DNA of 64,000 nt from Malania oleifera (Eukaryota > Streptophyta > Magnoliopsida > Santalales > Ximeniaceae), in assembly GCF_029873635.1 (NCBI RefSeq), contig NC_080417.1, positions 31,856,214 to 31,920,213 on the forward strand. Reading direction: 5' to 3'. Under the pieces are notes generated by a model. That model saw only the letters and a list, made by a program, of their open reading frames with translations, was not told the DNA's origin and made no database searches. The position numbers and the translations under genes are program-made. Shown piece by piece: positions 24,080 through 59,380 of the stretch; the stretch's first letter is position 1, and each line of letters opens with the position of its first letter.

Positions 24080-24176
24080 AATCTCGCTACTTGGTCTAAC
24101 GAGATTTAAAGGATCAGAGCAATTGGGATGTTGACATGTGGCTAACAAATCTCGCTGGACCATTCAGCGAGATTTG
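24080..24176. repeat. Paired hairpins in the left arm of element A
   Basis: AATCTCGCTACTTGGTCTAACGAGATT begins at 24080, and a second hairpin with arms AAATCTCGCTG and CAGCGAGATTT lies at about 24148-24176. The right arm has the matching pair at 36442-36470 and 36511-36538, the first followed by GCCACGTG. The same stem occurs in elements B and C. Confidence 0.85.
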
Positions 24177-24959: not shown

Positions 24960-25490
24960 AATATAGTAAAAACATAGAAGGTTTTTAAATTGAATTCCGG
25001 ATATTTTTAAACTAAATCCCATATATTTTTAAACTGAGTCCCATATATATGTCTCGGACATTTTTAAACTGAGTCCCGAATATTTTTAAATTGATTTTCG
25101 AATATTTTTAAATTGAGTCCCGATATTTTTAAATTGTGTCTCTATATATTTAAACCAAGTCCTAGATATTTTTAAACTGAGTCCCAGTATTTTTAAACTG
25201 AATCCCGGATATTTTCAAACTAGGTCCTGTATATTTTTAAATTTTATCCCGGACATTTTTAAACTGAGTCCCGGATATTTTTTAAATTGAGTTTCGAACA
25301 TTTTTAAACTGAGTCTCAATATTTTTAAATTGAGTCCTAATATTTTTAAGTTGAGTCTTGGTATTTAAAAAAATTAAGTCCCGATTTTTGAATCTCGATA
25401 TTTCTTAAATTGAGTTCCAGTATTTTCAAAGTTGAGTCCTAGTATTTTAAAAAATTTAGTCCCAATTTTTGGGTCCCGATATTTTTAAAG
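24960..25490. repeat. Minisatellite of ATATTTTTAAACTGAGTCCC units
   Basis: Roughly 20 units of about 20-22 bp, built on ATTTTTAAACTGAGTCCCGG with many variants, run across this stretch. Inverted copies (CTCAATTTAAAAA, GGACTCAACTTAAAAATACC) occur in the opposite arm at 24480-24600. The array is part of TIR element A. Confidence 0.85.
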
Positions 25491-25525
25491 TATTATGAAA
25501 TAAAAAATAGAATATAACAAATTAT

Positions 25526-25530
<5 letters not shown>

Positions 25531-25562
<32 letters not shown>
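25531..25562. repeat. AT dinucleotide microsatellite
   Basis: About 14 AT units. The inverted counterpart in the left arm (24425-24443) is a much shorter ATATATAT run, so the repeat expanded on this side. Confidence 0.9.
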
Positions 25563-25563
<1 letters not shown>

Positions 25564-25633
25564 TGTAAACCAATTCCCCCTCCCCTCTCTCTCCTCTCTC
25601 CCTGCCCCTCCCACTGAGCATGTCCACTCACCA

Positions 25634-27634: not shown

Positions 27635-27690
27635 ATTGGTATCAAAGTCTCGTCACTTAGACTTAAATGTTATTTTGTAAAAAGATCTTG

Positions 27691-28949
27691 ATGGCTCATG
27701 TTGGTGCATCCACATCTTGCGAAGGAGGGTTATCTACGAACCCTCCAGTGTTTTTCGTTGAAAATTTCGCCGAATGGAAATTTAGAATGACCATATATGT
27801 TAAAGCTTTAAATTAGAGGTTCTGGAAAGTTATTGCCAAGGGAAATAATGTTCCAATGAAAATCATTGATTGTGTTGAAATTCCCAAATTTGAAAATGAG
27901 TTGAATGATAATGACAGGAGCATAATGCAGATAAATTTTGATGCTATGAACACCTTGCTGCATGCTTTAGATTCTAACATTCTTTGTGAAGTTATGGCAT
28001 GTAATAGTGCTAAAGAGATATGAGAGAAACTTGAAAAGAGATATGGAGTAACTAAGCAAGAAAAGGCGATCACTCCTTGTGACTCAAGCTCAAAGGATCT
28101 TAAAGGAGAAAAACAGTTCTTTATAACTTTAACCGACGATGAGGTAAATTTGTCTCCTTCTACTTTATCAAATATTTTGATAATGATTCATGTGATAATT
28201 CTACTGATGCGTCTGATACAGGATCATGTGATAGTTTTGGTAGTGAAAGCATGCCTACTTATAAGGAATTGCAAATTGAATTTGTTAGAATTTATAAGTC
28301 TCTTGTCAAAACTAACAAAAGATATATTGCATTGAAAAACAAGTATGGGGCATCTTTGAAAGAATGTGAGTCAAAAGTTCTTATTGAAAGGAAAAATGAT
28401 TTCAAAATGAAACAATTAGTAAATAAGAATGAAAAGTTGGAAAAAGAGTTGAATGTATTAAAATCTCAAACTTCAAGTGATAATAAGAAAGATCTTTTCA
28501 TTTCAGAACTTGAATGTAAAGCAAACAACATGACCAAAGAATTTGTGAAATTACAGGATGTTTGCAAAGGTCTAAAGAGCTTAAAAATTCAAGATCTGGA
28601 AAAGAAAATAGAAAAACAAACTAAGATCATCTACACATTCACTAGAGGCAAGGACAACATTAATAAGTTGCTAGGTTCACAAAAGATGACCTTAGATAAG
28701 GAAGGTATAGGTTATAATGGGGTTAGAAATAGAAAGAGGAAGAATCTTTACATGGGGTACTTTATGAGAGAGTCCAAACATTATGCTAGTACCTCCTCCA
28801 GTCCATATTCTCACACTTTCTGTGCATTATGTAAAAAGAAGGGACGGATGAAGTTTGATTGCGAATTTAAACGAAAAGGGGTGAAAATGAAGCAAGTGTG
28901 GAGAGTCAAAGAAAAAACCCGAATCTATCTCTCCTTGACCCTAAAATGA
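27691..28949 (+). pseudogene. Copia-type gag (UBN2 family), broken
   Basis: From the ATG at 27691 the frame reads FFVENFAEWKFRMTIYVKAL and WKVIAKGNNVP, then LHALDSN and CNSAKEI, stop, EKLEKRYG. These are the conserved blocks of the gag polyprotein of plant Copia elements. In-frame stops lie at 27814 (TAG) and 28021 (TGA). After a frameshift near 28165-28180, a 232-codon open frame (from 28251) continues with a Lys/Glu-rich likely coiled coil. It ends in a zinc-knuckle remnant at 28821-28862, CALCKKKGRMKFDC, where Arg replaces the zinc-binding His. The part between KRYG and the coiled coil is shorter than usual. The protein would form the virus-like particle. Confidence 0.85.
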
Positions 28950-29039
28950 TCTAAGTGTCAAGCGGTTAGAATTGGTGCCCTCAATAATCATTAGGTCATG
29001 TATCTAAATCATAGGGGTCGTGTCAACTGAGAAAAAGTC

Positions 29040-29410
29040 AAAAGAAGAGAGGCTAACTAGGTTCGGTTGGCTGAACCCAATTCAACTTAATTCATTCAGT
29101 CGACCAAACAAGTAAGTTAACCAGATCGTTGACCACATTCGGGCGCCTAACCGTTCCTGTTAAAAACAAGTTTGGGCCACCGAACATGGTTCGGGAGACC
29201 GAACTGATCTTCGAGTGACCAAAGCTTCGGGTTTTTAATTTATCAAAGAGAGTCAGCCAACCGAACCCAAATGACCTTGTTTATTTCGGGGTACCAAGGT
29301 TAGGAATGTGAAAGGTCACCAAAGATTTAGCCAACCGAACAAACTCAACTTCTAGGGGATTTAAGATGGTTCGGGCGACCGAATCACGATCTATATATAT
29401 TTTGGCCGCG
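29040..29410 (+). promoter_or_regulatory. Internal leader with CGACCGAAC motifs and TATA box
   Basis: This internal stretch holds many variants of the LTR motif, such as TTCGGGAGACCGAAC, CAGCCAACCGAACC and TTCGGGCGACCGAA, at 20-50 bp spacing. They are followed by CTATATATATTTTGG near 29391 and then a pyrimidine-rich, leader-like tract with AAACCCTAGTTTTCCTC before the ATG at 29524. The layout copies the U3-TATA layout of the element's own LTR. I infer a second promoter for the downstream gene. Confidence 0.55.
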
Positions 29411-29523
29411 TGAAATATGTCATTTTTTTCATCTTTCTTGAGAGAACCTGAGAGTTCCTCTCTTCCTGCTGCCCTCTACTCTCACTCCAAACCCTAGTTT
29501 TCCTCAGAATACCTCTTCCAATC

Positions 29524-30552
29524 ATGTCTAGGGATCATAGGCCAGCTAAATCTGGGATTGCTCTTGAGCAATGGTTCATTTTAGTAGAAAGAAGGATCAA
29601 GTACGAGAAAGTCTTTAGGCTCAAGGAGCCTATCTTAGGTAAGGTACGTGACATAGAATTCATGCATCATTTCCATAATGTGTTAAAAATGTTCAAATAT
29701 TAGGGATGGTATGAATTTGTTAGTTTTCAACCCAAAGGAATGTATCCTATTCCTGTTAGATTATTTTACGCAAATCTAGGACAGGAAAACCAGTGATACT
29801 ACTCCCGAGTTTTTGAGACCAATATTCACTTTGATAACGAATATCTGGATGAGACCCTCAATATTCAGGGAGGAGAATTTGATTTCTTGGACTCTGTCTT
29901 TACTTGGATTAACGAGCAGGAGTTTACTGTGAGCACTTTTTTTAATCTTGTTATGACTAACCCTGTAGTTGATCTAAGTCATACCCCTAGCTACAGGACT
30001 GTGAAACTCGAGGTGAAAGTCATGCACCACCTGATCTCTTATAATATTTTGCCAAAATCTGGGTCTAGGGATCATGTTTCCTACCTAGGTTGCTTCGTGA
30101 TGTGGCGCCTCTTTACAAGGAAGAAGCTACATTTGCCAAGATTGATCTTAAAGTGGATGTTTGTAAAGACCGTGGGAAAAAGAATCATTCTGTCGTATGG
30201 GGGTATCCTTAATAGGGTCTTAGTCAGAGAGAGAGTCACCAAGACTCCTTATGCAGTGCTGAAGAAGATAAAAAACACAGATACCTTCTCCTCTACAACC
30301 CTGAATCTAATGGGATATGAGCTAACCGGCAACATGTGGTTGCCAACTATACTAGTGAGAGGAGCAGGCCTATGGGAGCTTCCTCAAGAGCATCCTCACA
30401 TGCCATCTAATGCAAAGATTATGGCTACCATCACGAGTCTCATAGCTTCTTTTAATGAGTTTAAAACATCTATCCAGAGTGAGATCAGGGAGTTGGCTTC
30501 CATATCTCAGATGAGGCACGCGGAGTTTTACGCTGAATTCACAAAACTTTAG
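29524..30552 (+). pseudogene. Putative plant transposon protein domain gene (PF20167-like)
   Basis: From ATG 29524 the frame runs 343 codons to a TAG at 30550, broken by TAG at 29701 and TGA at 29794. Recognisable blocks are RLFYANLG, a YRTVKLEVKVMHHLISYNIL stretch, SRDHVSYLGCFVMWRL and KKLHLPRLILKWM. These match the plant-wide domain annotated as putative plant transposon protein, usually found next to retroelements; its biochemical function is not known. The C-terminal part (MATITSLIASFNEFKTSIQS) looks like a coiled coil. It sits after gag in the same orientation, behind its own leader. The family assignment is from remembered motifs. Confidence 0.75.
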
Positions 30553-30659
30553 TCAATTGTAAAGGCAAACTTTCACATCCTTGGTGAGCGTCTGAGGGAT
30601 ATGAATGAGGATGATAAAGGTGGGGAGCAGATGGACATGAGTAGCGATGATGAAGAAGG

Positions 30660-31421
30660 GCCTGATGATGGGGAGGCCTAGAGGAGGCTTTGAGGATCAA
30701 CTGCTTATCCATATTATCTTTTTATACATACTTGGGTCTGTAATACTATATTGCTTTTATTTTTTTTGCTTTTTGCATTACATTCTCACACACCACACTC
30801 ACATATTGATGATTATTTTTTTGTGGTTGACTTAAGTTTACAGGCGATGGCTTGCATGTTTTAAATTTCTCCGATTATTCAGTTTGCCTAATTAATGCCT
30901 CCTGCATGACGGATGCAGTTGATGGGTATTGCCTGCTGGTAGAAATTTTAGGTTCTCGCATGCTGAACATGAATACTAACTGTTTGCTTGAATATTTTTT
31001 ATGTAGATTTTTATGGGAAATATCCTATTTACAAACGGCATGCTGCCGAATTTTTATCTGACATTTCCCAAAATATTCAATTTTTTTGCTAAATGACTGA
31101 TGCATGTGCATGAATAATTTAGTTTGAATTCAAATTAAGTAGCATCTGGTTGATGCAAAATCATTGAAGAATTATATGATATAATCAGTTTTTAATAAGC
31201 AGGTCTCCATGGGAAAAGCTTTTTTTTTTTTTAAGACGAAATGCTGCTAAATTTTTCTCAAATTTATTGCACACATCCTATGCTTTATAAAACTGAACTC
31301 TATGAACTGAGTTTGTGTTCCTAGAACATCATTTTTTTTATGCATCATGACTATTCTCAGTATGATCAGTTCTAGTTAACTTCAATCATCTTGATGGACT
31401 TAAATCCAATCTTTTGTGGCA
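30660..31421 (+). other. Non-coding internal region of the retrotransposon, left part
   Basis: No ORF with a known domain is present. There are repeated short blocks such as GGGAAATATCCT / ACGGCATGCTGC near 31020 and AAGACGAAATGCTGC near 31233, similar to AAACGACATGCTGC at 33978, suggesting an internal repeat. Confidence 0.45.
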
Positions 31422-32324
31422 TGTATTGTAACGACCTGCTTAACTTATCAAATAATAATCATAAATAATAATAACATCAACCCAAACCCGTGGGTAGTGG
31501 GGATAGCCCTGTCATAAATAGCGGAAACCTAAGCAGCAATAAGTATAAAATTACAACCATCCAACTAATATAACATAATACCAGAGTCTACTTACACCAA
31601 AATAACATACATGTATTTTCAATCTCCCATAACATTCCAAGTACAACTAGGATCTCACAACAAAATAATACTGATCCTAGTACAAAATCTTACCCTCCTA
31701 GAAGGGTAATTCAACAAAATCAATGGCGGCCACGACCCGCCGATCTCTTAGGGGCTCCTGAAAAATTAATTAAATTCAGGGGTGAGACACTTCTTAGTAA
31801 GGAAAAATAAACTGAATACAGTTGTGCGGCAACATGAACATTTAATACAATTATATATAGAGTACATTTCATATTTCTGTAAACGTTCATCATATCTTAC
31901 TGAATAATCATATACTTTCATATTTGCTAATAAATCATATCGTTCATAAAACGTCTATTATAACTGATAATATTGAAAACATACTCAGGATGAATAACTA
32001 GCTGATGTCATGTATTACCCCCCATGACGGGTTGTGCAGCCCGAAGACGGGACCCGACAATAGTTGGCCGACCACTGTCGAGTCAAAAATGTCTGTAAGT
32101 ATGATGGGCCCGCCACACCCTGGTCCAGACTGTCAAGTGGATGTCTACAACTCTACACTGAAAGCCACATCGACTATCCATCTTCCACCCCCTCGTGGAG
32201 TGGTTAGCACAAGTCTGAACATAGATTTCTGATCTATAAGCTACGGTACCATGCTCCTGAACTGAGTTAAACTAACATTCGGGTTCTGATAACATATAAT
32301 ACATGATATTATAGCATTTTTCAT

Positions 32325-32465
32325 CATTTCATGAATACGGCCTCGCACCGAAAATCATTTCATAAATACGGCCTCGCGCCAAAATCATTTCATATATATA
32401 CGACCTCGCGCCGAACATTTCATAAATATGGCCTCATGCCGAAATTATTTCATATATATCATTTT
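32325..32465. repeat. Minisatellite in the solo LTR
   Basis: Four to five units of about 30 bp, with TACGGCCTCGCGCCGAAA and ATCATTTCATAAA, are repeated with small changes. Confidence 0.8.
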
Positions 32466-33174
32466 GAAAATAAATCAACTGTCATGTACTTTTCAAAATC
32501 ATCATAATATACTGTATCTTTTCATAACTCCTGAAAACATGCTTTATTCGTTAAATTTGTTATATCATTACTTTTCATAAAAATAACATTCATGCCACAC
32601 AAAATTGAATAATTCCGTACATTTCATTCTAAAATGTCATTTTCCGTATAATAGCATTATTTTCCCAATAACATACATTTCTCAATAATATTCAAATATC
32701 ATGCATATTCCCTGAAATTTATTTACTGATTAATAATAATAATACGTGTGGAAAATCACTACTTTAGTTTATTCCCATACTTGGCTACTAAGAAAGCCCC
32801 TAAAAATCTCGGTCTAACACCCGTAGGGTTTCTTGATCAATGCCCTAAAAACAACAACCCCCAGAATTAAACATTAGTATTTCTTCGTAAATATCATTTC
32901 CTACAACTATGGTAAGACCAAATTTTGCATAAAAAGCCTTACCTTGATTTGGGGACAAATTTCAACTTGCTCCCACCAACGATCCGCTCCTGTAAAAATG
33001 GAGAGAACTTCTCCAAGAGCGTCATGGTGGCTTCAGATCATCGAATCGGCGGAAATCCGGCCCAAAATCAAAGAGAGAAGAGGAGGAAACCGAAGGGAGA
33101 GAGAAAGGGAGTTTCTACACTGAATTTCCATAAAAAAAAAATCCGAGTTTTCCACTATTTATAGGGCTGGATTT

Positions 33175-33350
33175 GTCGACAACCCACGTCATCTCGTTGA
33201 TGAGTCACGTCATCTCGTCGACGAGTCCTTTAATAATTCTATCGAGAAACCCACTCCTCGTTGACGAAATTTAAACTGCTCAAAACCTCTTTCGACATTC
33301 CTCATCGACGAGACATGTCACCTCGTCGACGAGCCCAATTACAATTTCGT
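33175..33350. repeat. Cluster of CTCGTCGACGAG palindromes
   Basis: The perfect 12-bp palindrome CTCGTCGACGAG occurs at about 33214 and 33333, with near copies CTCGTTGATGAG, CTCGTTGACGA and CTCATCGACGAG nearby. In the minus-oriented LTR this is U3, just upstream of the TATA box, so the motifs may be promoter elements. Confidence 0.7.
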
Positions 33351-33427
33351 CAACGAACTTTTGTTTCCATTTCCCACCATTTTAATCATTATTTAAATAC
33401 TATTATTCTTCGGGTCATTACATGTAT

Positions 33428-34251
33428 GGTTCGTAAATTCATAATTAAAGCCTAGGCTAGCTCTAAAGTGGAAAGGGGGAGCCCTTGTTTTTTTAAAAAA
33501 AAAAAATTAATACTCTTAGGGCCATTTAAATTCTTTGAGGAGAACATTATCCCTAAAACACTTGTTGATTATTTCCAAAGGGGGATCTCTCTTAAAGACT
33601 AATCTACATGAAATGATTTTAACTGATAATCTTTTGTCATGTTGTCTATTTATTAACTTCAAAATACTTATGTCTTATGCTCAAATTGTAAGAATAGAGA
33701 GAGTGCATAATCTGAGGGGGAGCCACTTCACTTAAAAAAGTACGGTTTTGAAAAATTAAACACTATCTCACATTATTCATTGCTATACTCTATACCTTGT
33801 GAGAATATCTTTCATTCATTGTGTGCTGCATGAGTACATTATCTCTTTGACTTGGCTATTTGAATTGATCAATACTGAACTGTTTGAGTTGATTGCTGTA
33901 AATTACTGTAAATCATTTGTTGAACTCAAACAGGTCACTTAGATAAAGATTTTTTTTGGGAAAATGCTTCATTTTTAAACGACATGCTGCTGAAATTTCT
34001 AAAAATCTTCCCAAACTATATCTTGTATCTAAATGATTGTTACTCATTGCTTGCCTATATGCTTCAATTCTTTTCTCTTGGCCCTTTTTTCTGATGCCAA
34101 AAGGGGGAGAAGTTTGACAAAATTGGGCACTTTAGTAATCTTTTTAAATGCTTGAGCTTTTAAATCTCTTTATGCATATTGTGAAGGGGGGCCCTTATTG
34201 GCTGTACCCACTTTTGCATAAAGTATTTGTCATCATAAAAAATAGGGAAAT
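33428..34251 (+). other. Non-coding internal region of the retrotransposon, right part
   Basis: Continuation of the internal region after the solo LTR, with no gene. It contains AAGGGGGAGCCCTTG and AAGGGGGAGAAG tracts and ends with the purine-rich tract before the 3' LTR. Confidence 0.45.
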
Positions 34252-36245
34252 TGTTAACCTAATTGGCCATATCCCGTTTTGATAATGACAAATACATTGG
34301 TATTTGATGTTTGCCCTAAGCATGTATGCAGGTTCACTCTACGCGTGAAATTGAAAAGAATCCTACCTTATGGTGGCGTATGGTAACCCCAAGGAAGAAT
34401 AAAGACTATTGTGCTTATTTGTAATTATAATTTTTACATTCTTCATTCTGGACTGTAACATAATATGGTATGTAATAACTACATCAGGCATGACAGACCT
34501 ATATGCTCAGGTAACCTTAGATTGACCTTTAGGTTCCTACACATTTAGTGCACAAGACCCCTCCTAAACACACATGTCATCAAGGGTGAATTTAAATTAA
34601 AGTATGAACATTAGCTCAAAATTGTATAGGCTTCGGGCGACTGAACCAGGCAAGATAATTTTGCTTCAGTCAACCGAACAGAGGCTGGTCAAATAGTTGA
34701 CCTAACTTCGAACAACCGAACCCAAAAGAGCTGAGTGTTCACGGTTGACCGAACTCAAACCCTAACTTTTTCTAACGTCCTTGGGCGCCCGAACTTTATG
34801 TTCATTTTCACCTCAGGCGATCGAACTAAGTAGTTTGGCAAACCAAACTTAAGGACAGGCAACCGAACCTCAGATAGTTTGGAAAATTGCCTTGTTCAGC
34901 AACCCGAACCATTTTTCAGGCACCCGAAATTCAAAAATTACTTTTCTTCATGTGACTGTTCGGGCAACTGAACCTATGGCTCGGTCGACCAAAACTCTTG
35001 GGTTGGCCTAATTTTTACCAAGGTTAATTGGGGTTAAACAGGGTTAATTTCATTAAACTCATTTAAAATAATTCTAATATTTCCCTTGGTATCCCCAATG
35101 GTTATAATTTTGGCCTTGTCTATATACATGTGTTCATTTGCTTAATTAAGACAAGATTAGCATTTGGATTAGCCTAAAAATACTCTTAATTTTTGAGAGT
35201 ATATTTTTCAAATACAAAGCCTATACACTCTTTCTTTGTTATTCCCTTCATAAATCAAGTTTCTAAAGAGTGTCCTTGAGTGATCCTAATTTGATTCCAC
35301 TTGCTTAAAACTCTCCTTGTTCCAGTTGATTGATTGTTTTTGATTGAGAGTTTTAGCCAAGGTTTTTTCCTAATTTAATTAATAATCATTGTGTGGGAAA
35401 ACCTTGTAGCTAGTGAGTCTTTGCATCATTATTGCAAGACTCATTAAGCTTATGTTTTTTATTGTGTTAAAATTATTTTCACAAGCTTATTTTTCAAATA
35501 TCTTTTAAGCTAATATTTTGAGAAAATTATTTTTGGGATATTTTGAATATTCTTGTGGGAACTCTTTGTAACCCTAGTTGTGATTAATTAATATTGATAC
35601 ATTGTTTCAAAGAGTATTTGAAAATACACTCTAGGACTTGATTGTATATTGACATTAGACTAAGTGTTAGCACACTTCATTGACACTGAGCATAAATACT
35701 ATCATCTGCGAGTGCATATTTATCTGGACTGTATTGTGGTACATATCTACTTATGTAGAAGCACTTAAATTTGTACGTAAAAATTCATATTTGTCGATTG
35801 TATTCCAGGCATGGAAATGACGAGGGAGACTTGTCCTGTGAAAATTCCCAGATTGACTTTGACTCGATTAGGAAAGCTAAATGCACCATCCCGGTAAGGT
35901 GTTGTAAACGGTGTCGTTCCACCCGTGAAGTGAGCCTTAGTGGAATCCTTATACTTGTGAGTCAAGGCGGGGATGTAGGCAGTATTGGCCGAACCCGGAT
36001 AACATATTTTGTGTCTTCTCTCTGTTTAATTTCCGCACTTTCAATTCCGCATATGTTTGCTAGTACTTGAACTGCTGTGAATGTTTTAATTGCTTTAAAT
36101 ATTTGCATACATACTTGCTTGGGGAATTGAGTCTATTTTAAAAAGACCCTAAGTTGTGTAATACTATTGTTTGATTAGTTGAACCTAGGAAGAAATTTTT
36201 AAATCTCCAATTCACCCCCCTCTTGGGATTGCACCAAAGTCAACA
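34252..36245 (+). repeat. 3' LTR of the 10.6-kb retrotransposon
   Basis: It starts TGTTAACCTAATTGGCC and ends AAAGTCAACA, and aligns with the 5' LTR along its whole length. The motif cluster lies at about 34635-35000 and the TATA-like TCTATATACATG near 35120. The 99-codon and 66-codon frames at 35765-36070 are paired in both LTRs and are chance frames in a conserved R/U5 region. Confidence 0.92.
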
Positions 36246-36628
36246 CCCCCCCCCCCCCCCGTTTTTTTTTGCTGACAGAAGTGACTGACCCCCCTCCCTT
36301 CTCTCTCCTCTCTCCCTTCTCACGCCCTACCCCTCTTGCTGGCTCAGCTGACGCACGCATCAGCTTTGTCCACAACCCCCTTGTTTTTTTTTTTCTATTG
36401 AATGCAGCTGACAAACTCATGCACCAATTCCATTTGTAGGCAAATCTCGTTGGATGGTCTAGCGAGATTTGCTTGCCACGTGCCAACGTCCCAATTGCCC
36501 TGTCCCTTTAAATCTCGCTGGACCATGCAACGAGATTACGTGAGCGTCATTCTGTGAATAATTTTCTCAAACAAAGTATTATTTAATATATTATTATAAA
36601 ATAATAATAATAAATTGGGAAAAAAATC
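36246..36628. repeat. Right arm of TIR element A
   Basis: After a 15-base C run, the sequence is the inverted complement of 23991-24360. The CTGACGCACGCATCAGC block pairs with GCTGATGCGTGCGTCAG near 24264. The arm ends with GGGAAAAAAATC and the target duplication. Confidence 0.88.
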
Positions 36629-36638
36629 CAATTAAAAG

Positions 36639-40429: not shown

Positions 40430-41870
40430 ATTTTTGATTGGTTGATTTTTTAACTATTGAATTTCTATTAATGACTCATTTAATAATTTAATTAATTTAT
40501 CATAATTTTGTACTCAATTTATTTGAAATATATATTTCCAATTTCATGGGCTAATCAAAATTTATTTATATTTTTATTTATAGTTTATGTTTAAAAGTAT
40601 AAGTCCCTCTTCTTTTTTCTTTTTTTCCTATATAAATGTCTGACATGTTTTGTTATTAACAAATAAATAAATAAAGACAAATGATTGATAGTATGTGTTT
40701 GGCCCAATCAAAAGTCATTGTTTAGTAAAATCCAAATTCCAAAATAGATGAAGGCTGGCTCATGCGTACATTGTTTACCTTTTTTGGTCTTGTTATTTTT
40801 TGTTTTCCAACTTTAATATTTTTCAATAATAATTGTCAATATTTATTAAATTTTATCTAGTTGTGAAATTTTTGGATACAAATTATCGGGCAAAGAGATT
40901 GATTCTTAGAATATTTAAAATAAGATTTTTTAAATGATTAAGATTAAATTATTTTGGGATTCGTTCAATTGTGGAAATTATTTTCAAATTTTTATTTAAT
41001 TTTTCAAAAATTATAAAAATGTGAACTTATTTTTTTAGCTCAAGGTTCTTGCTAAAAATATATAAAAGAATGTGTTTTTAGTCGTGTGAAGTTATTTTTT
41101 TTTTTTACTTTTTTAGTACATTTAAAATAATTTCAACAAATACAACTTTTTTGTTTCAAATTATTATATGAGATAGTATTGGAAATGATGGATTTTGAAG
41201 CTTTGGAAAAAGCTAATTACATAGTTCAAACAATTCAAAATTTAAGATCTGAGTTCCATGCTTTATATGCAAAGTAAAAAGTTAGAAATGTCAAAAAGAA
41301 CAAAAAGATATTTCCCAATTTTCTTATATAAATTTAGAAAATTAATAAACAAGGTGTATTTTTTAATTATTTAAAATTTAAAAATGGAATATAAAACTAT
41401 TTACATAAGCAAATAACGGCAAAATTTTTTATTTCTGTTCATTTATTTTAAACAAACGTTGTACAACTAAAAAATAATTTTTTTGTAATTCTTTATAAAA
41501 TTAAATTGAAAAAATAAAATAAAATTTTTTTTTTTTTGCAAAAAATGGGCTTTATTTTCTTTTCTAAAGCAAAATAGAGTTTTGTTTAAGATGAAATTAT
41601 TAGTTACTTTTCTTAAAAAAACGATGTTAATTTATACTAGTAGCTAGTATAATTGTAGTAAAAATATCGAAATATTTATTATAACTTCAGTATTTTTTGG
41701 GAATTTTCAAATTAAATGAAGAACAGGTGATGGTTATTTGTAGTTCTTAATTATTTTAAGTTAAGAGTTAAATATTAAAGGAAAATAATTAAAATAATGT
41801 CATTAATTAATTTAAATTATGTTTCTCCATTTAACATAAAGTTAATATGAAATATTATTTTGATCTCTTT
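40430..41870. repeat. Third copy of the AT-rich duplicated block
   Basis: Parts appear in the order 40530-40715 (matching 23810-23990), 40700-41260 (matching 36639-37700 with a 560-bp gap where the SINE lies) and 41570-41870 (matching 23510-23830). It shows the uninterrupted target of element A at 40710 (CCCAATCAAAAG). A MITE-like AT-rich piece may occupy 41270-41560. Confidence 0.75.
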
Positions 41871-42852: not shown

Positions 42853-43647
42853 CTAATCAACAATCAGCTTAGAATCACATTCAATAATAATATTACAAAA
42901 GCTCAAATCCTTACATAACAACACCCCCATGTGCAAAGCACGAAACTCAGCTTCATTATTCGTACCTTGTCCAAAATAAGAAGAAAAAACACCTTTAAGA
43001 TTGTCAAAGGAATCTTGAATAGGGCCTCCACCCCCACACGAACTCGGATTACCTCTACAGCTTCTGTCAACATTTAACTTCACAAAACCCGTTGATGGTT
43101 TCTCCCAAACAACTATACGCTGTCTTCTAAGATTATGAGGCACTATTCGAGATATGTCAAATAAATCAAACCCCTCAGACCTGGATTGCAAAACAGAATG
43201 CTCTATCAAAATCCGCCTAATCCAAAAACAAATGGATCTCCAAACCCCCTCCTTAGACTCCACTGTATTTTTCATCCTAACTTTGCACTGAAATTGCCAA
43301 ATATACCAAGTGATTATAGAGGGAATTAACCCAATAATAATGCCACATTGAGAAGACTTTTTTGCTAAAGAAAACCAATGAAAGACACGCCCCCACCAGG
43401 TTCCTGCAATGAATTTCGGCAGGCCCAAAATACAAGTCGCTCTATCCCAAACAAACAAAGCCACCTCCCTTGAACTCAACACATGATCAAGCATTTCAAT
43501 CTTCTTGTTAATACAACAGTCACATCTTGAAGCACGATAAATACCACAATGCTGGATGCATATATTCACCGGCATACAATTGAATCGAGCCTTCCACATA
43601 CACGCTGAGATTTTTTTTGGGAGAAAATTATGCCATATCCACTCCAT
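42853..43647 (-). pseudogene. L1 ORF2: zf-RVT and RNase H domains
   Basis: The 264-codon open frame starts with WHNFLPKKISACMWKARFN, then CDCCINKKIEMLDHVL, the zinc-binding zf-RVT region at the C-terminus of plant L1 ORF2. Further on, VKLNVDRSCRGNPSSCGGGG, NNEAEFRALHMG and IIIECDSKLIVD are the RNase H blocks with D, E and D catalytic positions. Plant L1 elements often carry this RNase H domain. The frame stops just after the third acidic block. Confidence 0.9.
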
Positions 43648-45242
43648 ACCCGGGTAATTGTCTTGCTTTAATTTGATAATTTCTCAAGCACCAGATGACG
43701 AAAAAATTCCATCCAAAGTCAGGTTCCATATTAGAACATCTAGACCCTGTTTCTTACTATGCAACGAGAGCAAAATGTCACCCAACATATCAGGACCTAT
43801 AAGATCTTGCATTCGCTCCTAATTCCACCCATTGTCATCCATGTAATCCCTCACCTGGATAAGAGAACAGGAGACGTCCTCCACGTTTAAACAAAGAGGC
43901 CCTGAATTCAGTCAGCGATCAAACCAAAAGGAGACCCGTCCATCACGAACTCTCCAAATGGTGTTCTCACAAACAACCGGCAAAACTTGCATTAAGGACT
44001 TCCAAAACCTTGAACAACCTGAATAATTGCTAGCAAGAGCAAGATGCCCTTTCAAAACATATTTAGCCTTAAAAAATCTCATCCATAAATTATCCATTTT
44101 CAACAAATGGCAAACAAACTTTATGTGAAGAGATCTCTGCACCTCCACAAAATCTCTAATTCTCAAACCTCTTTCCAACTAGGGAACGCATAATTTCTTC
44201 CAAGCCCGCCATTTACGCTTAAACTTTCCATTTTTCTCTCCCCAAAAGAATGAGGATAAAACAAAGTTTACCTTCTTCAGGGTAGAACGAGGTACATCAA
44301 GAATAGCCAGCAAGTGAAGTGGCATAGATGACAGTATATGTTTCAACAGAATTAACCGACCACCTTGCGACAAAAGCTTAAGCTTCCAACTCGCCACCTT
44401 TGATTGAATTTTATTAACCAAAGGTTCCAGAATTCTTGCTTTAAGCCTTCCTGACACAAGAGGAATGCCCAAGTATGTTGTAGGAAAGGATTCTTCAAGA
44501 AAACCCGAGGTCCTGTAAATCTCACGATGCCTTAATATATTAAGGAGCTTAGAAAAATACACAGCAAATTTCTCCTTACTAATATGCTAGCCTCACCATT
44601 TTTCATACAACTCAAGAGTCTTCAATAAATTCCGAAATGACCTTGCATCTCTATTAGAAAAAATCAATAAATCATATGCATAAATAAGATGTGAAACGAT
44701 AAGAGCATCAACAAGATGGAAAAATCTACCATTCTTGCCCAACATAAAATTTTATTATAACAACCTAGACAAGACTTCTTCCATAAAAATAATGAGGTAA
44801 GGCGAGAGAGGACCCCTTGACGCAAACCCCTCGTTGGTTTAAAAAAAAACCTTTGAAAGAGTCATTTAGCATAATAAAGAACCAAGGAGACTGAATACAA
44901 TTTGCCATAATCCCCCAAAATTATCACCAAAACCAAAAGCCACCAGGACATCTAAGAGAAAACACCAATTAACTCAGTCATAAGCCTTGGCCATATCAAT
45001 CTTAAGCATTACATTGCTACCCTGATTTTTCCTATGTATCGAATGCACCATCTCCGAGGCCAAAGTAATATTTTCAAAAATATTACATCCCGAAATAAAA
45101 GCTCCTAATTCCTAAGATATCATCTTATGTAAAACCCATGTCAACCGAGCCACTAAAATCTTTGAAAAAATTTTATACGCCACGGAACACAAACTTATAA
45201 GTCTAAACTTATCAAAACTCTTTCGATCCAACACTTTAGTGA
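43648..45242 (-). pseudogene. L1 ORF2: RT palm, thumb and C-terminal region
   Basis: From right to left the minus strand gives FDKFRLISLCSVAYKIFSKI and NVMLKIDMAKAYD (catalytic Asp block) near 45230-44970. The active-site block near 44680 reads IYAYDLLIF, where the expected YADD has become YAYD, so a catalytic Asp is lost. Then come TYLGIPLVSGRLKARIL, GGRLILLKHILSSMPLHLLA (44179-44562) and SLHIKFVCHLLKMDNLWMRF (43912-44178). Several stops separate these frames. Confidence 0.85.
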
Positions 45243-47414
45243 TGTAATTGGTGTGATCCCAAGAGGGGGGTGAATTGGGTATTAAAAATTTCTCCTAGGT
45301 TAATTCAAGATAACAATAGTATTACACAACCTAAGGTCTTTCTAAGTAGTCTCAATTCCCCCAATTAATCAGATATGCTAATATTTAAAACTAATAAATC
45401 ATTCATAACAATTTAAATATTGGCATATAGATACCACATCATATCCCATTTAAATTTAAAGGTGTGTATGTAAAAATGATTTACCAATTAATGCGAACCT
45501 ACACGAGTGCAACATATCTTATTTAATTCAAATGTGTGCATGTAGATAATTATAACAATAAATAAACAAGCATACACATATAGAAATTAAAGTGCAGAAA
45601 ATAAATGAGATAGAGAGACACACACACGATATTTGTTATTAAAGTTTGGCCAAACCAGCCTACGTCTCCGCCTTGGACATAATCCCTAAGGATTCTACTA
45701 TTCATGCTCACTTAAACGGGTGGAGTAGAAGCCGTTTACAACCTTTCCTTACGGGGTAAGGTAAATCCCAGCTCAATTACCAGGTTAAGCCCAACTGGTC
45801 TCCCTTATGGGGCGGAGAAACCCCAACTCAATTCATGGGTTGAGCCACAACCAACACTCCTTGAGAGACAGAGATACCTCAACAACACTTTACGAGTAGT
45901 GCCAAAACCTAGCTAAATTTTCAAGCTGAGTCCAACTGGTCTCCCTTACGGAACAGAGACTTTCCAGTTCAATTTACGGGTTGAACCCAACCGATATAAT
46001 AAAGATGTAATTTTTGTACACATAAAAGTACTTCTAAATACAAGCAAAGATGTACAATATTAACGCTCTTAAAATGCACTCTCTAATGATATGAAACATA
46101 CTCAGAGAGTGAGGGTGTTATTTTCAAAATAATATTTTTAATCTTTAAAAAATAATGTGTATAATAAGTGCTTCAAAGATTTTACCCTAATAAAAAAATT
46201 TCTCCAAATTTTTTTCCAATATGAAATAGGAGAACTTAGGGTTTTGGTTTTTCAAATGATTTTTACAACATAAAAATTTATCCATGAAAGCATGGATGTA
46301 AAAATAAATGCCTTAAAATAAAAATGCTCTCTTTCAAAAAGTTTTTCAAATGATCAAAAGGAAAGAGAGTAGGAGAGTAAAAATATTGTCCTAAAGGAAA
46401 GATTTTTGCAATAAAAATATGTTTGGGGGAACTTTGAATAAAATAGCCTAAATAAATTTGAGAGAAAATTTTGACTAATCAAAATTTCTAATCAGGCTTA
46501 TGGAAGGGGTATATATAGAGTTCTGGAAATTTTGACTGTTGAGGGACACGTTCGGTATATTGAAAATGTTTAATTAAAAAATTAATGACGTTTTAGTGCT
46601 TAAAAAAATTTCCAACCCGAGAGGTTCGGTTGCCTGGTGCTAAGGCCGGTCGACTGAACACACACAAAATTTTGAAATTGATTTTGGGTTCGGTTGGTCA
46701 TGGGAGATGATTGGTCGGCTGGCCAAGGCGATTTGCCAAACCTTCATAGGTTCGGTTGGCCGAGCCTAAGTCCGATTTGTCGATTCTTGAGGCTTGGTCG
46801 GCTGATGGCATTTTGACTTAAAAGATCGGTCGGTTAGGGCATGTAGAAAGGCCAAGTTTTAAAGTCGGTTGACCGTGGAAGTAGTGTTAAAAAATGGTCG
46901 ATCGACCAAGCCTAGTCAAACATTTGACTTCTGGCTAGTCGGTTGATTGAGGCACTTTGAACGTGCATGGGTTGGTCGACTGACGTCAATAAGGATCCTA
47001 GGTTTGACTTTGTTTTTTACCCTAAAGTTATTTTAAAACCTTTGTAAGTTATAGACACATTTGAAAAAGGTTTGAATGAAAGGTTTAAGTCCCTTAAGGT
47101 CATTCTATGGTCATTCTAAGCTTTGGTATTCATATCATGCAGATGCATGCATTATTACAGATTAAGATAAAAATTAAATGCAATACAAATTAAAATCAGT
47201 GTCTTCGTCTTCTTCTTTACTCTTTTGTCTTCATGGAATATGCCAGATTGAGCTTTAAGTTCTTTCTTAGTTTCCATGTCCTTTTGATCTTATGTGTGAC
47301 CTGATTTATATACCTGTTCACACACTTAAAAACACAAATAAGATACGAGTGCTTTGTCAACATCAAAACAGAGATTGAACTCAAAAAGTCAACATTTAGG
47401 ATTCAACACAATGA
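45238..47414 (-). mobile_element. Solo LTR (about 45243-47409) in the L1 RT, minus orientation
   Basis: The left edge TGTAATTGGTGTGATCCCAA is the complement of the related LTR end (GGGATTGCACC), and GGGGGGTGAATTGGG matches the same LTR. The right edge is near TTCAACAC at 47409. The flanks AGTGA (45238-45242) and AATGA (47410-47414) match at 4 of 5. On either side, L1 RT sequence continues. The sequence shares the AGGCGGAGACGTAG-type block and the array of TCGGTCGACC-like motifs (46540-47000) with the LTRs at 2847 and 25634. The minus strand has CTCTATATATACCCC near 46510 as a TATA-like site. Confidence 0.8.
46540..47000 (-). repeat. Array of TCGRCCGAAC-like motifs in the minus solo LTR
   Basis: Variants such as AGGTTCGGTTGCC, GGTTCGGTTGGCCGAGCC, AAGTCGGTTGACCG and ATGGTCGATCGACCAAGCC recur every 25-50 bp, in inverted orientation relative to 3235-3640, as expected for a minus-oriented LTR. 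The array lies upstream (higher coordinates) of the TATA-like site. Confidence 0.72.
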
Positions 47415-48262
47415 AAGAAGAGGAATAGAACCTAGGTAGCTTTGTTCCCTTAAAAAATCGTTGCAACTTCAACAATATCATCTTTCATAATATCCCAACA
47501 AGCCATATAGAAACCGGACCCAAATCCATTGGGACCAGGAGAACTATGCTTCGGAATAGAGAAAACCGCATCACAAACTTCCTCAACCACAAGAATCGCA
47601 CTGAGCATAGAATTTTCCTCTCTTGTTAAAATTGGCTGAATAACAGGATCCAAATCGGCATGAATAACCTCTTGTTCCTCAGTCAGAAAATTATGGAAGT
47701 AATTAATAGCTTCTTGATGAATTTCCTCTAGAGAAGAAAAAACAGAGCCATCTACCAAGTGCATATTAGTCACCATGGATTTCTTCCATCTCTGTTTAAC
47801 AGAAGCACGAAAAAACCTTGAGTTTTGATCTCCTTCAAGAAGCCACTTCTTCATAGCTTTCTGAGCCCAACAAGCTTCTTCTCTAGCCTCCCACTCCGCC
47901 AACTCCATTTTGGTACTCAAAAAATCAGCCTCAACTTGTTGATCAAACTGAGCCTGAAGTTGAAACTCAAGTATCTCCAACTTTTCTTCAAGAGCGTGAA
48001 TGTTAAGATTTACCCGACCGAAGGTCTGTTTATTCCAAGTTCTTAACACATTTTTCAATTTTTTAAGCTTTGCCGCTAGTTTAAATAAACCACTCGAAGA
48101 TTCCAACAGCTTCCACACCTCCTCCACACAGCCCAAAAAGGAATTGTGAGAAACCCACATATTTTGGAATTTAAACGGAGTCAGACCATACTGTACCCGA
48201 GGAGCCGACAAATGAACCACCATCAGACAATGATCAAAAGACTTCCTAGGCAAATATTCCAT
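47410..48262 (-). pseudogene. L1 ORF2: endonuclease end, linker and RT start
   Basis: The 270-codon frame (47450-48262) opens with YLPRKSFDHCLMVV, the end of the endonuclease (SDH site, here FDH). It goes on with a Glu/Lys-rich linker (EARE.CWAQKAMKKWLLEGDQ, NSRFF) and reaches IPKHSSPGPNGFGSGFY, the conserved start of the RT domain. It is then cut by the solo LTR. A stop separates it from the main endonuclease frame. Confidence 0.9.
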
Positions 48263-48280
48263 ATATGCCGAATGAAATAA

Positions 48281-48874
48281 ACTCTAAAAAGCAACATTAA
48301 CCAAAACACGATCAAGTCTTGCCCAACTACGAGACCTCCCTATATGCCCATTGCAACCCTGAAATCTCATCTCAAGAAGACTACAATAATTCAGACAATT
48401 ATTAAATTCCGACATCACCACCAATGGACGTTGATTACCCCTAATTCGTTCACTATCACTACGGATGACATTAAAATCTCCAACCATTAACCATGGAGAC
48501 TCCCCATCACATAAATTCTGAAGATCCTCCCAAAGAAAGTGTCGCTCCAAATGAGAACACTTAGCATAGACAAAAGAAACCAAAATTTTCCTAGCATTAA
48601 AATGAACCCAACCCGACAAGGCTTGGTCCAAAGAGTGAATAATATCCACATGGTAACTTTCCTTCCATAAAATCCAGACTTTCCCTCCCGAATCTTCATT
48701 GCAACAAAAATATTGAAAACCCCAAAAAGAAGCTAACCTCGGCATAGCAACCGAATTATGAAAAGGTTCAAGAATAGCTACCGCAACAACATGAAACTTC
48801 CGAATAATAACTTTCAGACGACTCCGAGAACGACCCAACCCTCTTATGTTCCACACTAAAATGGTGTCAATCAT
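48281..48874 (-). pseudogene. L1 ORF2: APE-type endonuclease
   Basis: The 196-codon frame opens MIDTILVWNIRGLGRSRSRL and has VVAVAILEP with the catalytic Glu, VSFVYAKC, WLMVGDFNVI with the Asp-Asn pair, and SWARLDRVLVN with a further catalytic Asp. These are the ordered motifs of the apurinic-endonuclease-like domain that nicks target DNA to prime reverse transcription. The start is close to the natural ORF2 start. A stop at 48281-48283 precedes the SDH-like end. Confidence 0.92.
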
Positions 48875-49296
48875 AAAGAATTTTTTAATGAATGGGTTAC
48901 AACTTGTGTGTCCCGATAATCACAGCTCCCCATCTTCCCATGATTCTTTTTCTTTGAAGACCTTAGAATTCCTGGATCTGTCTCATAATTTTTTGTATTC
49001 ATCAAATTTTCTTCTCGTGTTTCCTCTCTATCCAATGAATAATCACAATCATTCAACTTTAATTTTCCTTTATCAACCATCACTCCCTCACCTTCAAGAG
49101 CCAAAACTTCTAACACAATATCACACTAACCATCTTCCACTTCCATAGACAGGACATTATTCACCATATTGGCAATCGTATTTTCGGTACGATAATCATC
49201 TGTGGTATCACAAGCAACTACCTCTAAAGAGATAGTTTGAAAAGCAGTGACAACACCATGCGAATCAGCTTCACAATCAATCTCCTCACATATTTC

Positions 49297-55050: not shown

Positions 55051-57184
55051 TAAGAGTTTGGAATTTTTTCCGAATTTATCATTTTTTTTAAAAAATATAT
55101 TAAATAATACCTTTTTTGGGAAAATAATTCCCAGAATAACTCTGACGTAATCTTGTTACTTGAAGTAGTGAGATTTGCCACGTGTCATTTCGGGAATTAT
55201 TTTCCCAAAAAAGATATTATTTAATATATATTTTTAAAAAAATTGATAAATCAGGAAATAAATTCTTTTGTGTAATAAATCAGGAAATAAATTCTTTTAA
55301 TATATTTTTTAAAAGAGTGATAAATCGGAAAATAAATCTTTTGCATAATAAATTATTCTGCGTAATAAAACAAAATTTAATTCTTTCTCTTACTTTTGGA
55401 ACAATAAATTTTTGAAAAAAGAAAATTCCTATTTAATTATATCTATTTTTTTCTATTTAATATATTTTTGAAATTTTTTTTACTTAAAAGTATTGTTTTG
55501 TTTACTAGATTTAAATATTCTTTTTAGAACGATTTAGAAATGGGATAAGTGTGAAATATTTTTATTTAGTTTGCCTTATATCAATATAGAAAATGTATAA
55601 ACGATACCCATTTCTCTATTTGGTTCATAACAAAAATAAAATTTTTACATAAGATTCTCATGAGTTGTATGAAATTAAAATTTTCATATTTTGTGAGCAT
55701 AAAGATAAGAGTGTCACATTTTTTAAAATTTTATATTCCTCAAAATATAAAAATTGCCATCATATATGGCTTGCTAATCACTAGTTATATGTAAAAATAA
55801 ATATCATGAAGACTTTAAAAAAAATTAAGGGTCTATTTAGTTATGGAAAATATTTTTAATTTTTATTTTTAGTTTTAAAAAATATTTAAAAAATAGCTAA
55901 TTTTTTATTTTTTAGAAGTTTTTTCTAAAATAAATTAACAGTATAAAAAATTTGACACTATTTTCTTGTAGAAATAGTTCTATTTTTATTTTTTAAATAA
56001 TTAAAAATGACATTTTTTAATTTTTTAAATTTATATAGAAAAGGTAACAAATATTTTTTTTACTATTTTTTAGATTTCTAACTCTTGTTTGGTTAATTAA
56101 GACTTGAGAGCATGTACTCATATATTAAATTTTGATTTGTGAATTCAAATCCAAAATTAGTGATCAAAACTATGTATTATATAAATTACTTTTTTTAAAA
56201 AAAAAATTACTTTAAAATTTATTTAAAAATCTAAAATTACAAATAAAAAATTATTTTGACTTTTAAACAAAATATTTATTTCTAACTATTTAATATGAAT
56301 CTTAAAAACTAGAAAATCAATTAAAATTTTATAATTTTTAAAAAATAAAAAATAAAAATATTTTCCACAACTAAACTAGGGTGGTGCTTGATAATTGGGA
56401 CTATAAGAATTGAAATTGAAATAATTGATTCTCATTCCCAATGTTTGCGTATTGTAAATCTCATTTCAATTCCGCATGCAAAATGATATTTCCCCTTTTG
56501 TCTATATTTTGATTCTTACCTCTTACTCTAGAATCAAATCTTGATTCTTGAAAACACAATATTTATTATAATATGACAATTTATATATAATATATATTAG
56601 ATAAATTTTAAAAATAATATTAATATTGTGATATCATCATTAATATTTTTATTATATATAATAATATTATAGCATATAAAAATTTATAGAAAGTATAATT
56701 CAATTTGAATGTGACTCCTGTCAATCAGTGTTATTTTTGTTTCATTTCCTTTATGTACTAGTAATACCATTATCCTTCATCGAGACAACCAAATCCAGGC
56801 AAACTAACGCATTTTTACCCATGACTAATTATGGAAAACTAATGCGTAATAAAACATGTGGCAAATCTCGCTACCATAAAAGAATTTATTTCCCGATTTA
56901 TCATTTTTTTAAAATATATTAAAAAATTAATTTCCCGATTTATTACGCAGAAGAATTTATTATGCAGAATAATATATTTCTTGATTTATCATTTTTAAAA
57001 AATATATATATTAAATAATATCTTTTTTAGGAAAATAATTCCCGAAATGACATGTGGCAAATCTCACTACTTCATGTAGCGAGATTACGTCAAAATTATT
57101 CTGAAAATTATTTTCCCCAAAAAGGTATTATTTAATATATTTTTTTTAAAAAAGGATAAATTCGGAAAAAACTCTAAGAGTTTG
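55051..57184. mobile_element. Long-TIR element B (55061-57174) with perfect 10-bp target duplication
   Basis: TAAGAGTTTG lies at 55051-55060 and 57175-57184. The ends are GAATTTTTTCCGAATTTATC (left) and the complement of GGATAAATTCGGAAAAAACTC (right), and the arms pair for more than 120 bp, including ATATATTAAATAATACCTTTTT, GGGAAAATAATTCC, TGACGTAATC and the ATCTCGCTAC hairpin. The 2114-bp interior is AT-rich, non-coding, and holds a MITE-like insert at about 55829-56381 and partial second copies of the arm near 56840-57000. The end sequence and duplication length match elements A and C. Mutator-like elements usually make 9-11 bp duplications, so I place the family there provisionally. Confidence 0.88.
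55829..56381. mobile_element. MITE-like insert in element B
   Basis: The left edge GGGTCTATTTAGTTATGGAAAA and the right edge TTTTCCACAACTAAACTAGGG are inverted repeats, related to the Tourist-like MITE at 11279-11899. The interior is AT-rich. Target duplication is unclear. Confidence 0.5.
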
Positions 57185-57753
57185 TATTGCCTGTGACCTT
57201 TTCCCCATTAATTATATATGCATTTTTTTTATAAAGAAAAAATATATTTTTTAAAATAAAATAAAAATTAAAATAGATGGCTATGTTTATTGATTAGGCT
57301 GTAAAACTACAATATTGTTACCCATTCATAAATCATAACTTTTAACCAAAGGCCAAAACCCTCATGCAACTAGGTGGTGTGTGTGAGCCCAATCACACCA
57401 ACCTTAATGTTACTGTAGTTTTGATTCAAGTGTCTGAGTGAGTCAAATATACTTGCAAATCACAAGCTACATAGGTTGACTTAGTTTGTATCTTGATTCA
57501 ACTTCGTTATGTTCAAATTTGAGTCAAGTTGAAGCTACTTGAGTAGTTTGATGCATCTAGTTCGAATTTTATAATATTAATCATGAACTTAATCGAGTCT
57601 AATCGAGCTTTTGCAATTTTATTATTTTTATATTATCTAAGTCCATATATTTAATATTATATATACATTATATTGTTTTATATTATTTTTATATAATTAG
57701 TATTATTTTTGTAATACCTATTAAGGTTTTTTTCTTGATTCAGCAAATTAAGC
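57185..57753. other. Spacer between elements B and C, no gene seen
   Basis: AT-rich, with no ORF and no recognised repeat. Confidence 0.4.
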
Positions 57754-58171
57754 GCAAGAAGACGAGTTTTTTCCCCTTTTATCTTTTTTTTTAAATATAT
57801 TAAATAATATCCTTTTTGGGAAAATATTTTCCGAAATGACTCTGACGTAATTTTGCTACTTGGAGTAGCGAGATTTAAGCAAATCTCGTTATTTGAAGTA
57901 GCGAGATTTGCCACGTGTCATTTCCATAAAAAAAAATTATTTAATTTATTTTTAAAAAATAATAAATCTGGAAATAAATTATTCTGCATAATAAATCGGG
58001 AAATAATATATTACGCAGAATAATTTATTTCCCGATTTATCATTTTTTTAAAATATATTAAAAGAATTTATTGTATAATAAATTGAAAATTTGAACTTTA
58101 TTTTAAATTACCAATTTTAATTGTACCTAAAGTTAATATATATATATATTGACACAACAAATATTATTGAC

Positions 58172-58208
<37 letters not shown>

Positions 58209-59380
58209 TGACAGTTTGTTAAAGGGAAAAAAAATATAACGTTTAAAAATATTATTCATTTTTAAAAAATGTTTAAAAATAATAATATATATTTAGAGTT
58301 TGAAATTTAAATTATGAATATGATTTTTATGTATTTGTACAAAAAATAAATTTTTTTTTATAATTTTACCCAAATTTAAATTTGACTCTCGAATTCAAAT
58401 TCCCAAATATAATTTTTTATTTTAATTATTAACTGATTTTTTATGATCGATGAATAGAAAAAATCAAAGTAAAAAGTCGATTCTTTTTAAGAGACAAAAA
58501 AAAGAAAAAGAAAAGTGTGTTGGCTTTTTTGAGGTTAAATATTCTTAAGTCAAAGATTTGTATAATTAATGTATTTATTTGTGGATTCTAATTATGTGGG
58601 ATACTTTTTCTAAGACTACTTCATAAGTGTTTTCACTTATTGTTTTGTTCAATTAATAAAAAAAAATGAGAGAATATTAAGATATGATAATTATGTATAT
58701 ATTTATTATTTAAAGTAAAGATGAATTATCTTTATTATAAGAGATGAGAAAAAAAAATGTTAAAGACTCGCTTAGTCGTGGAAGATATTTTTTATTTTCT
58801 AATATTTAAAATTTTAAAAAGTTATAAAATTTAGCTTTTTAAAAAAAATATTTTGAATATACATATAAAAAAGGTATAAAATTGGGTGTAAATACCCATA
58901 AAATATAATAAAGAAAAGAAATTGGAAAAAAAAATTTTTGGCTAAGAAAGGAGAAAAATCGGTTATGATTTTCTGGAGAGGAGAGAAAACCGGTGACGAT
59001 TTTGGGGATTTGTCGCGGGACGGTAAATAAAAACCATTTCAAACTCTAAATAATTCTCTTTACATTTTGTTAATTTATTATTTTGACTCTAAATATAAAA
59101 ATATATATTTTAAAAAAATTATTCTGTGTAATAAATTCTTCTGCGTAATAAATCGAGAAATAATTTATTACGTAGAATAATTTATTTCCCAATTTATCAT
59201 ATTTTTAAAAAATAAATTAAATAATATATTTTTTATGGAAATGACACGTGGCAAATCTCGCTACTTGAAGTAACGAGATTACGTCAGGATTATTCTGAGA
59301 AATATATTCCCAGAAAAGATATTATTTAATATATTAAAAAAAAAAAAAAAGATAAAAGGGGAAAAAACTCGCAAGAAGAC
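57754..59380. mobile_element. Long-TIR element C (57764-59370) with perfect 10-bp target duplication
   Basis: GCAAGAAGAC lies at 57754-57763 and 59371-59380. The left end GAGTTTTTTCCCCTTTTATC and the right end GATAAAAGGGGAAAAAACTC are perfect 20-bp inverted complements. Inside them both arms carry ATATTAAATAATATC, a GGGAAAATA block, GACGTAAT and the hairpin; the left arm has two hairpins in a row (57849-57910) ending GCCACGTG, the right one at 59253-59280 next to ACACGTGGC. The 1607-bp element has no ORF with a known domain. It includes several TTATTACGCAGAATAATTTATT blocks and a TA microsatellite (58174-58204). Confidence 0.9.

Follow-up and report, generated by a model that had tools for sequence, protein, structure and literature searches.

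The analyzed window, a stretch of 64,000 nucleotides of the Malania oleifera genome (RefSeq assembly GCF_029873635.1, contig NC_080417.1, positions 31,856,214 to 31,920,213, forward strand), contains three elements with long inverted arms and related ends, designated A, B, and C. Our analysis points to non-autonomous foldback Mutator-like elements (MULEs) that would depend on a transposase encoded by larger relatives elsewhere in the genome. B and C are neighbors with the following features (window coordinates):

55051-55060, plus strand: left target duplication of B, TAAGAGTTTG, perfect 10 bp
55061-57174, unstranded: element B, 2,114 bp, read as a non-autonomous foldback MULE from its ends, arms, and matches to relatives
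55061-55342, plus strand: left inverted arm of B, 282 bp
56878-57174, minus strand: right inverted arm of B, 297 bp, 84% identical to the left arm
57175-57184, plus strand: right target duplication of B, TAAGAGTTTG, perfect 10 bp
57754-57763, plus strand: left target duplication of C, GCAAGAAGAC, perfect 10 bp
57764-59370, unstranded: element C, 1,607 bp, read as a non-autonomous foldback MULE from its ends, arms, and matches to relatives
57764-58058, plus strand: left inverted arm of C, 295 bp, 74% identical to the right arm
59103-59370, minus strand: right inverted arm of C, 268 bp
59371-59380, plus strand: right target duplication of C, GCAAGAAGAC, perfect 10 bp

A first-pass annotation had described B and C as two elements with ends of one type and exact 10-bp target duplications; the shared ends, the inverted arms, and a perfect 10-bp duplication for each element were all re-found in the window. 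B terminates in GAATTTTTTCCGAATTTATC and GAGTTTTTTCCGAATTTATC, and both termini of C read GAGTTTTTTCCCCTTTTATC. Identity of this kind is rare by chance (18 of 2,000,000 randomly drawn 10-mer pairs from the window). The strict end motif GA[AGT]TTTTTTCC occurs five times in the 64 kb, every time at an end of A, B, or C, and the left end of A is the same motif with one extra T. Genome-wide, the end pattern GAGTTTTTTCCNNNTTTATC was found 472 times, compared with a single occurrence of its reversed control. A further motif, GTAGCGAGATT, occurs 10 times in the window when up to one mismatch is allowed, all 10 inside A, B, or C; it sits approximately 90 to 105 bp inside the shared ends (GARTTTTTTCC...), often as inverted pairs.

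Long terminal inverted repeats, a MULE trait, measure about 270 to 300 bp in B and C and about 600 bp in A. The outer 205 bp of the left arm of B (55061-55265) are imperfectly palindromic (83%) and, as DNA, are predicted to adopt a nearly end-to-end hairpin (−57.4 kcal/mol, z −14.2, with none of 200 shuffled sequences as stable). Among 21 elements compared, 14 have an arm palindrome of at least approximately 150 bp; that of A is only 25 bp, and the same script detected none in six. Judged by palindromic or modular arms, most of these elements are foldback MULEs.

Element A had been taken as one transposon spanning 23991 to 36628. That span proved to be composite, an overlooked long terminal repeat (LTR) retrotransposon of 10.6 kb being nested in its right arm:

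23981-23990, plus strand: left target duplication of A, CAATCAAATG
23991-36628, unstranded: element A as found, a 2,028-bp foldback MULE interrupted by an LTR retrotransposon
23991-24588, plus strand: left inverted arm of A, 598 bp, 77% identical to the right arm
25404-25632, minus strand: inner piece of the right arm, an inverted match to 24352-24588 at 80%
25636-36245, unstranded: LTR retrotransposon nested in the right arm of A; its two LTRs (25636-27634 and 34254-36245) are 93.5% identical
36257-36628, minus strand: outer piece of the right arm, split from the inner piece by the retrotransposon, an inverted match to 23986-24353 at 79%
36629-36638, plus strand: right target duplication of A, CAATTAAAAG
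40528-40768, plus strand: A-free paralogue of the insertion site of A, with a single target copy, CAATCAAAAG, at 40705-40714

The LTR pair rules out a single 12.6-kb transposon; with the retrotransposon removed in silico, A is 2,028 bp long, has arms of 598 and 615 bp (77% identity), and ends in GAGTTTTTTTCCAAGTTTATT and GATTTTTTTCCCAATTTATT. Its flanks agree at 8 of 10 positions, as first reported, and the empty-site paralogue within the window accounts for this match and rules out chance agreement. Because the single copy CAATCAAAAG differs by one base from each of the left (CAATCAAATG) and right (CAATTAAAAG) copies, we conclude from this comparison that A made a 10-bp duplication which has since decayed. 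The two long frames inside the nested retrotransposon have Pfam matches below the cut-off only, its LTRs match window positions 3626-4758 at about 68%, and arrays of a 22-bp unit occur inside A at 24982-25489.

To tabulate duplication lengths across genomic copies, as the first-pass annotation had proposed, we searched 1,494,336,490 bases in 510 contigs, of which 13 contigs of 86 to 157 Mb were involved in the results. A search with the arm of B gave 75 matches; 40 of 1,586 candidates were scored, consisting of the two ends of B and 38 other sites, 36 of which were read. Duplication length was left free between 6 and 12 bp, with a penalty for departing from the end consensus, a rule devised after viewing a looser tally and therefore not blind. 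A duplication was recognized at 25 of the 36 sites, and at 23 of these it was 10 bp long (18 perfect, five with one mismatch); the others were one of 8 bp (L010) and one of 7 bp (L021). Random far ends passed the same rule in 3.5% of 1,440 trials. The superseded tallies gave 15 of 34 at a score of at least 5 (pairs of arm hits only) and 27 of 38 including B and C (loose ends), with five of the 27 at 11 to 12 bp through shifted ends. Flanks of sites without a recognized duplication also matched at 10 bp in L011 and L067 (9/10 each) and in L022 (8/10). In L014, once another element that had inserted at the terminus of the first was skipped, GTGATGAGAG and ATGATGAGAG agreed at 9/10, and second elements at the same loci gave 10/10 (L014) and 9/10 (L019). 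The claim of a constant 10 bp therefore survives as a rule or mode (23 of 25 recognized sites and 9 of the 10 large elements described below) but not as a constant, since a few cases of 7, 8, and 9 bp exist. The 37 listed 10-bp duplications are ordinary sequence (66% A+T, no pure [TA]n run) and, over both strands, tend slightly to open with C followed by A and to close with T followed by G.

Several of these copies share more than arms with B (in L012, L014 [401], L018, L022, L023, L024 [401], L026, and L028), and elements in L014 (2478) and L024 (2054) cover the full length of C; those in L015, L025, and L011 make up a third subgroup. The interior of B at 55818-56356 resembles window positions 11310-11910 and 41230-41519 at about 71 to 73%, possibly from an older small transposon inside an ancestor of B. 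A scan of 10 interior open reading frames for captured host gene fragments of the Pack-MULE kind gave nothing above a Pfam cut-off; some interiors of family members are richer in GC (e.g., 0.49 at 7237-8336 of L019). Members also lie in or against each other: at 401-4358 of L014 the duplication of the second member, AAAAGACTCA, includes the end of the first; at 6799-9601 of L019 one member lies inside another; and in L069 the duplication GAAAAAACTC resembles an element end. For a further pair in L019 (2290, 3622), no duplication was found by eye.

As the first-pass annotation had stated, A, B, and C encode no transposase that our searches could detect: the best tblastn match in the window to the family transposase described below has an E value of 0.14, and none of 10 open reading frames scanned from the interiors of these elements and their relatives, four of them from A, B, and C, exceeded the Pfam cut-offs. 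Elsewhere in the genome, a search for the MULE transposase domain returned 1,008 candidates, of which 150 were scored (here called listed transposases); 13 of the 150 lie in open frames of 875 to 918 amino acids with no stop in the match. A relative with a MULE-type transposase, such as the annotation had proposed to look for, was found at C7:760635-774396. This element of 13,762 bp terminates in GAGTTTTTTCCCGTTTTAAC and GATTTTTTTCCCC, is flanked by a perfect 10-bp duplication (GAATTCCGAC), and carries, 4.8 kb inside, the transposase domain of an intact 884-amino-acid frame. The encoded protein matches PF10551 (MULE; E = 3.2e-17) and PF04434 (SWIM; E = 6e-7), while the MuDR DNA-binding model falls below cut-off. 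By inspection, we take D494, D555, and E659 to be its putative DDE triad. Over their longest matches (111 to 124 bp), the arm of this element is 79 to 82% identical to the arms of B and C.

The association between these arms and a MULE transposase recurs. At all 40 scored sites, the match to the C7 arm spans at least 116 of 120 bases with 96 to 100% identity. A listed transposase lies within 15 kb on the element side of 17 of them, whereas the outer side has no such neighbor at any site (shifted controls average 0.08 and never exceed 1). The near identity of the arms (copies at 96 to 99% to the C7 arm) suggests recent movement. Ten further end pairs were read, nine of which enclose 6.4 to 14.3 kb; eight of these have 10-bp duplications and one has 9 bp, so that 9 of the 10 large elements, C7:760635 included, have 10-bp duplications. 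Among them, C1:153911409 has a 10-bp duplication and a damaged left end, and C3:121225857 has a perfect 10 with canonical ends where our script favored 11 with one end shifted by one. The small tenth pair (C1:136018822, 1.6 kb) agrees at 9/10 with canonical ends.

A second transposase-bearing type is represented by C1:128598765-128607965 (9,201 bp), whose arms of approximately 330 bp (90%) are nearer to those of A (76%) than to those of B (68 to 71%). It exceeds the cut-offs for MULE, SWIM, and the plant mobile domain, has a broken transposase frame (matching pieces fall in different frames), and is nested in a larger foldback element, C1:128596506-128608281, with the perfect 10-bp duplication CTTTCTAATG. 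For L030 (C10:19851309), a MULE taken from elsewhere in the transposase list, the 9 kb read showed only short and weak matches to the family arms.

These data, namely the ends, the arms, the duplications, the empty site of A, and transposase-bearing relatives with the same type of ends and the same duplication length, bear out the annotation's view of the elements as Mutator-like. It is very probable, on this comparative evidence, that A, B, and C belong to the non-autonomous foldback MULEs and owe their movement to the MULE transposase of large relatives, acting in trans with a 10-base stagger. The enzyme, supplied from elsewhere in the genome, would recognize the shared ends (GARTTTTTTCC... 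with GTAGCGAGATT), the repeated GTAGCGAGATT being its putative binding site. It would excise the element and join it to a target cut with a stagger of 10 bases, and repair would then copy 10 target bases on either side. A, B, and C may be mobilized in this way now or may have been formerly.

A number of observations weigh against this reading. Between A, B, and C and the two transposase-bearing elements read, similarity is confined to the end regions and the interiors show no match, so that only the ends link A, B, and C to enzyme-bearing elements. The same lack of interior matches means that none of A, B, and C is simply a deleted form of either element. Only four of the nine further large elements hold a listed transposase (the interiors of the other five being unread), and the flanks of C1:128598765 agree at only 7/10. 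A perfect 9-bp duplication is found at C3:47388843 and a 9-bp match at 8/9 around the second element in L024; in L010 the ends are canonical and the duplication is a clean 8 bp (or a perfect 10, should one end lack two bases), the 7-bp duplication of L021 is dubious, and 11 of the 36 B-arm sites have no duplication recognized under the tally rule. Genome searches with joined flanks found no empty site for B (one partial match besides the window's own flanks) or for C (39 partial matches, all falling in the first 73 of the 240 bases).

The duplication could in principle be 8 bp long if each end of the element extended one base farther out. In A (C...G) and C (G...C), the 10-mer begins and ends with complementary bases, which can then be counted as part of the element ends; this is also true of 16 of the 37 listed 10-bp duplications, C7:760635 included, and of 7 of the 18 perfect ones of the free-length tally. 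The clean 8 bp at L010 fits as well. Complementary outer bases would be common anyway, given the mild C-A start and T-G end preference, and in the other 11 of the 18 perfect duplications they are non-complementary, as they also are in C7:8793965, C9:63758882, C2:121966777, and C10:33570487. A length of 8 bp would require two coincident flank bases per copy and a terminal base that varies among elements, although GA is the usual start. It fails at the unambiguous B (outer bases T and G), at L015 (TATGGAGCAT), and at C7:8793965 (TGCAATCTTC), and we regard it as extremely improbable. Hardly more credible is mobilization by another superfamily (e.g., of P or hAT type), with the elements merely near MULEs. 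In its favor, A, B, and C yielded no transposase, and long foldback arms exist outside MULEs, as in Galileo, which PMC3573991 places with P elements; yet the C7 element has the same type of end on either side, a 10-bp duplication of its own, and a transposase domain inside, and listed transposases recur on the element side of 17 of 40 arm sites and on the outer side of no site.

A less remote alternative, although still one we consider rather unlikely, is that the present transposase no longer recognizes the ends of A, B, and C, which would be relics, the C7-type family being only a cousin. This agrees with trans-mobilization for the past and departs from it for the present. The arms of B and C are 79 to 82% identical to the C7 arm over 111 to 124 bp, versus 96 to 100% identity to that arm for the 40 scored C7-type sites, and the two arms are 84% identical in B and 74% in C. 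Such divergence is expected of old copies in any case, and age and lost recognition are not separable here.

Several known systems are close to these elements. The gSaTar and AgS-MULE elements of guayule are likewise non-autonomous MULEs with inverted arms, with 10-bp duplications in members inserted into ordinary sequence and with transposase-bearing partners identified through shared ends (PMC5907723). As described there, they differ in targeting mostly (TA)n microsatellites, an insertion type found at none of our 37 listed 10-bp duplications. MuTAnT of Medicago shares non-autonomous MULE structure and arms of modules that fold back but has 9-bp duplications and TA microsatellite targeting (PMC4486113). 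The Tm1 Mutator/Foldback elements of root-knot nematodes have composite foldback arms, groups with and without transposase, and duplications of 8 to 10 bp in 45 of 53 cases; in contrast to our family, 9 bp is commonest, the host is an animal, and the transposase resembles the Phantom subclass (PMC3169594). Abermu of barley resembles our large relatives in being a transposase-bearing MULE (8.2 kb) with extra genes and arms of approximately 140 bp, but 267 of its 278 duplications are 9 bp and one is 10 bp, and its ends are GGG...CCC (PMC9168764). FARE of Arabidopsis, by the description given in PMC4486113, has long palindromic repeats at both ends and is classed with MULEs. A literature full-text search with the end sequence GAGTTTTTTCC returned no transposon paper, judged by title.

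MULE duplications are reported to span 7 to 12 bp, usually 9 (PMC9168764), or 8 to 11 bp (PMC5907723), and our mode of 10 bp falls inside the published range. Because guayule MULEs show 10 bp as well (PMC5907723), this length is not unique to the family. The annotation's view of one Mutator-like family with 10 bp as the rule is thus upheld, and its suggestion that 10 bp alone may mark a distinct lineage is not. As far as these sources go, modal duplication length looks like a family trait. Assignment to MULEs agrees with everything compared here, namely a transposase in a relative with the same type of ends, the duplication length, and the long inverted repeats. With a clear mode at 10 bp instead of 9 and with copies that bear a transposase, this MULE family could allow the stagger to be tied to a particular transposase.

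The large relatives also bring in a second gene, one with a plant mobile domain. With 2,388 candidates at first look, this domain is highly abundant in the genome; our search gave 207 matches, and 111 of the candidates were scored. Among the first 110, 25 have a listed transposase upstream of them on the same strand and no more than 8 kb away, the distance being 1.4 to 2.2 kb in 24 cases (shifted controls average 0.04), each counted without being tied to family ends; the remaining 85 have no listed MULE transposase just upstream. In the C7 element the domain is recognizable only as diverged pieces of 32 to 40% identity, with one short piece at 86%. MULEs carrying a plant mobile domain are reported from grasses and Amborella, where PMC5418596 describes them as fusion proteins. 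Our elements are alike in that a MULE carries the domain and differ in that, in the two copies read, it lies downstream of the transposase frame, as frames or diverged pieces. For the domain in other MULEs, a function in opposing host silencing has been speculated (PMC5418596), which makes the gene beside many MULE transposases here a candidate for such a role. Most tentatively, and with considerable doubt, the family may be one MULE lineage in which the 10-base stagger is a trait of its own transposase, the arms are built on inverted GTAGCGAGATT, and the plant mobile domain was taken up independently of the grass and Amborella cases, possibly countering host silencing.

Elsewhere in the window, minus-strand remains resembling a long interspersed nuclear element lie at 42856-48919, with zf-RVT, RVT_3, and endonuclease/exonuclease/phosphatase domains above Pfam cut-offs. 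At 629-5329, also on the minus strand, frame pieces resemble a Copia-type retrotransposon by inspection. A 164-bp unit is present twice at 14134-14461 with 99% identity, probably a recent local duplication.

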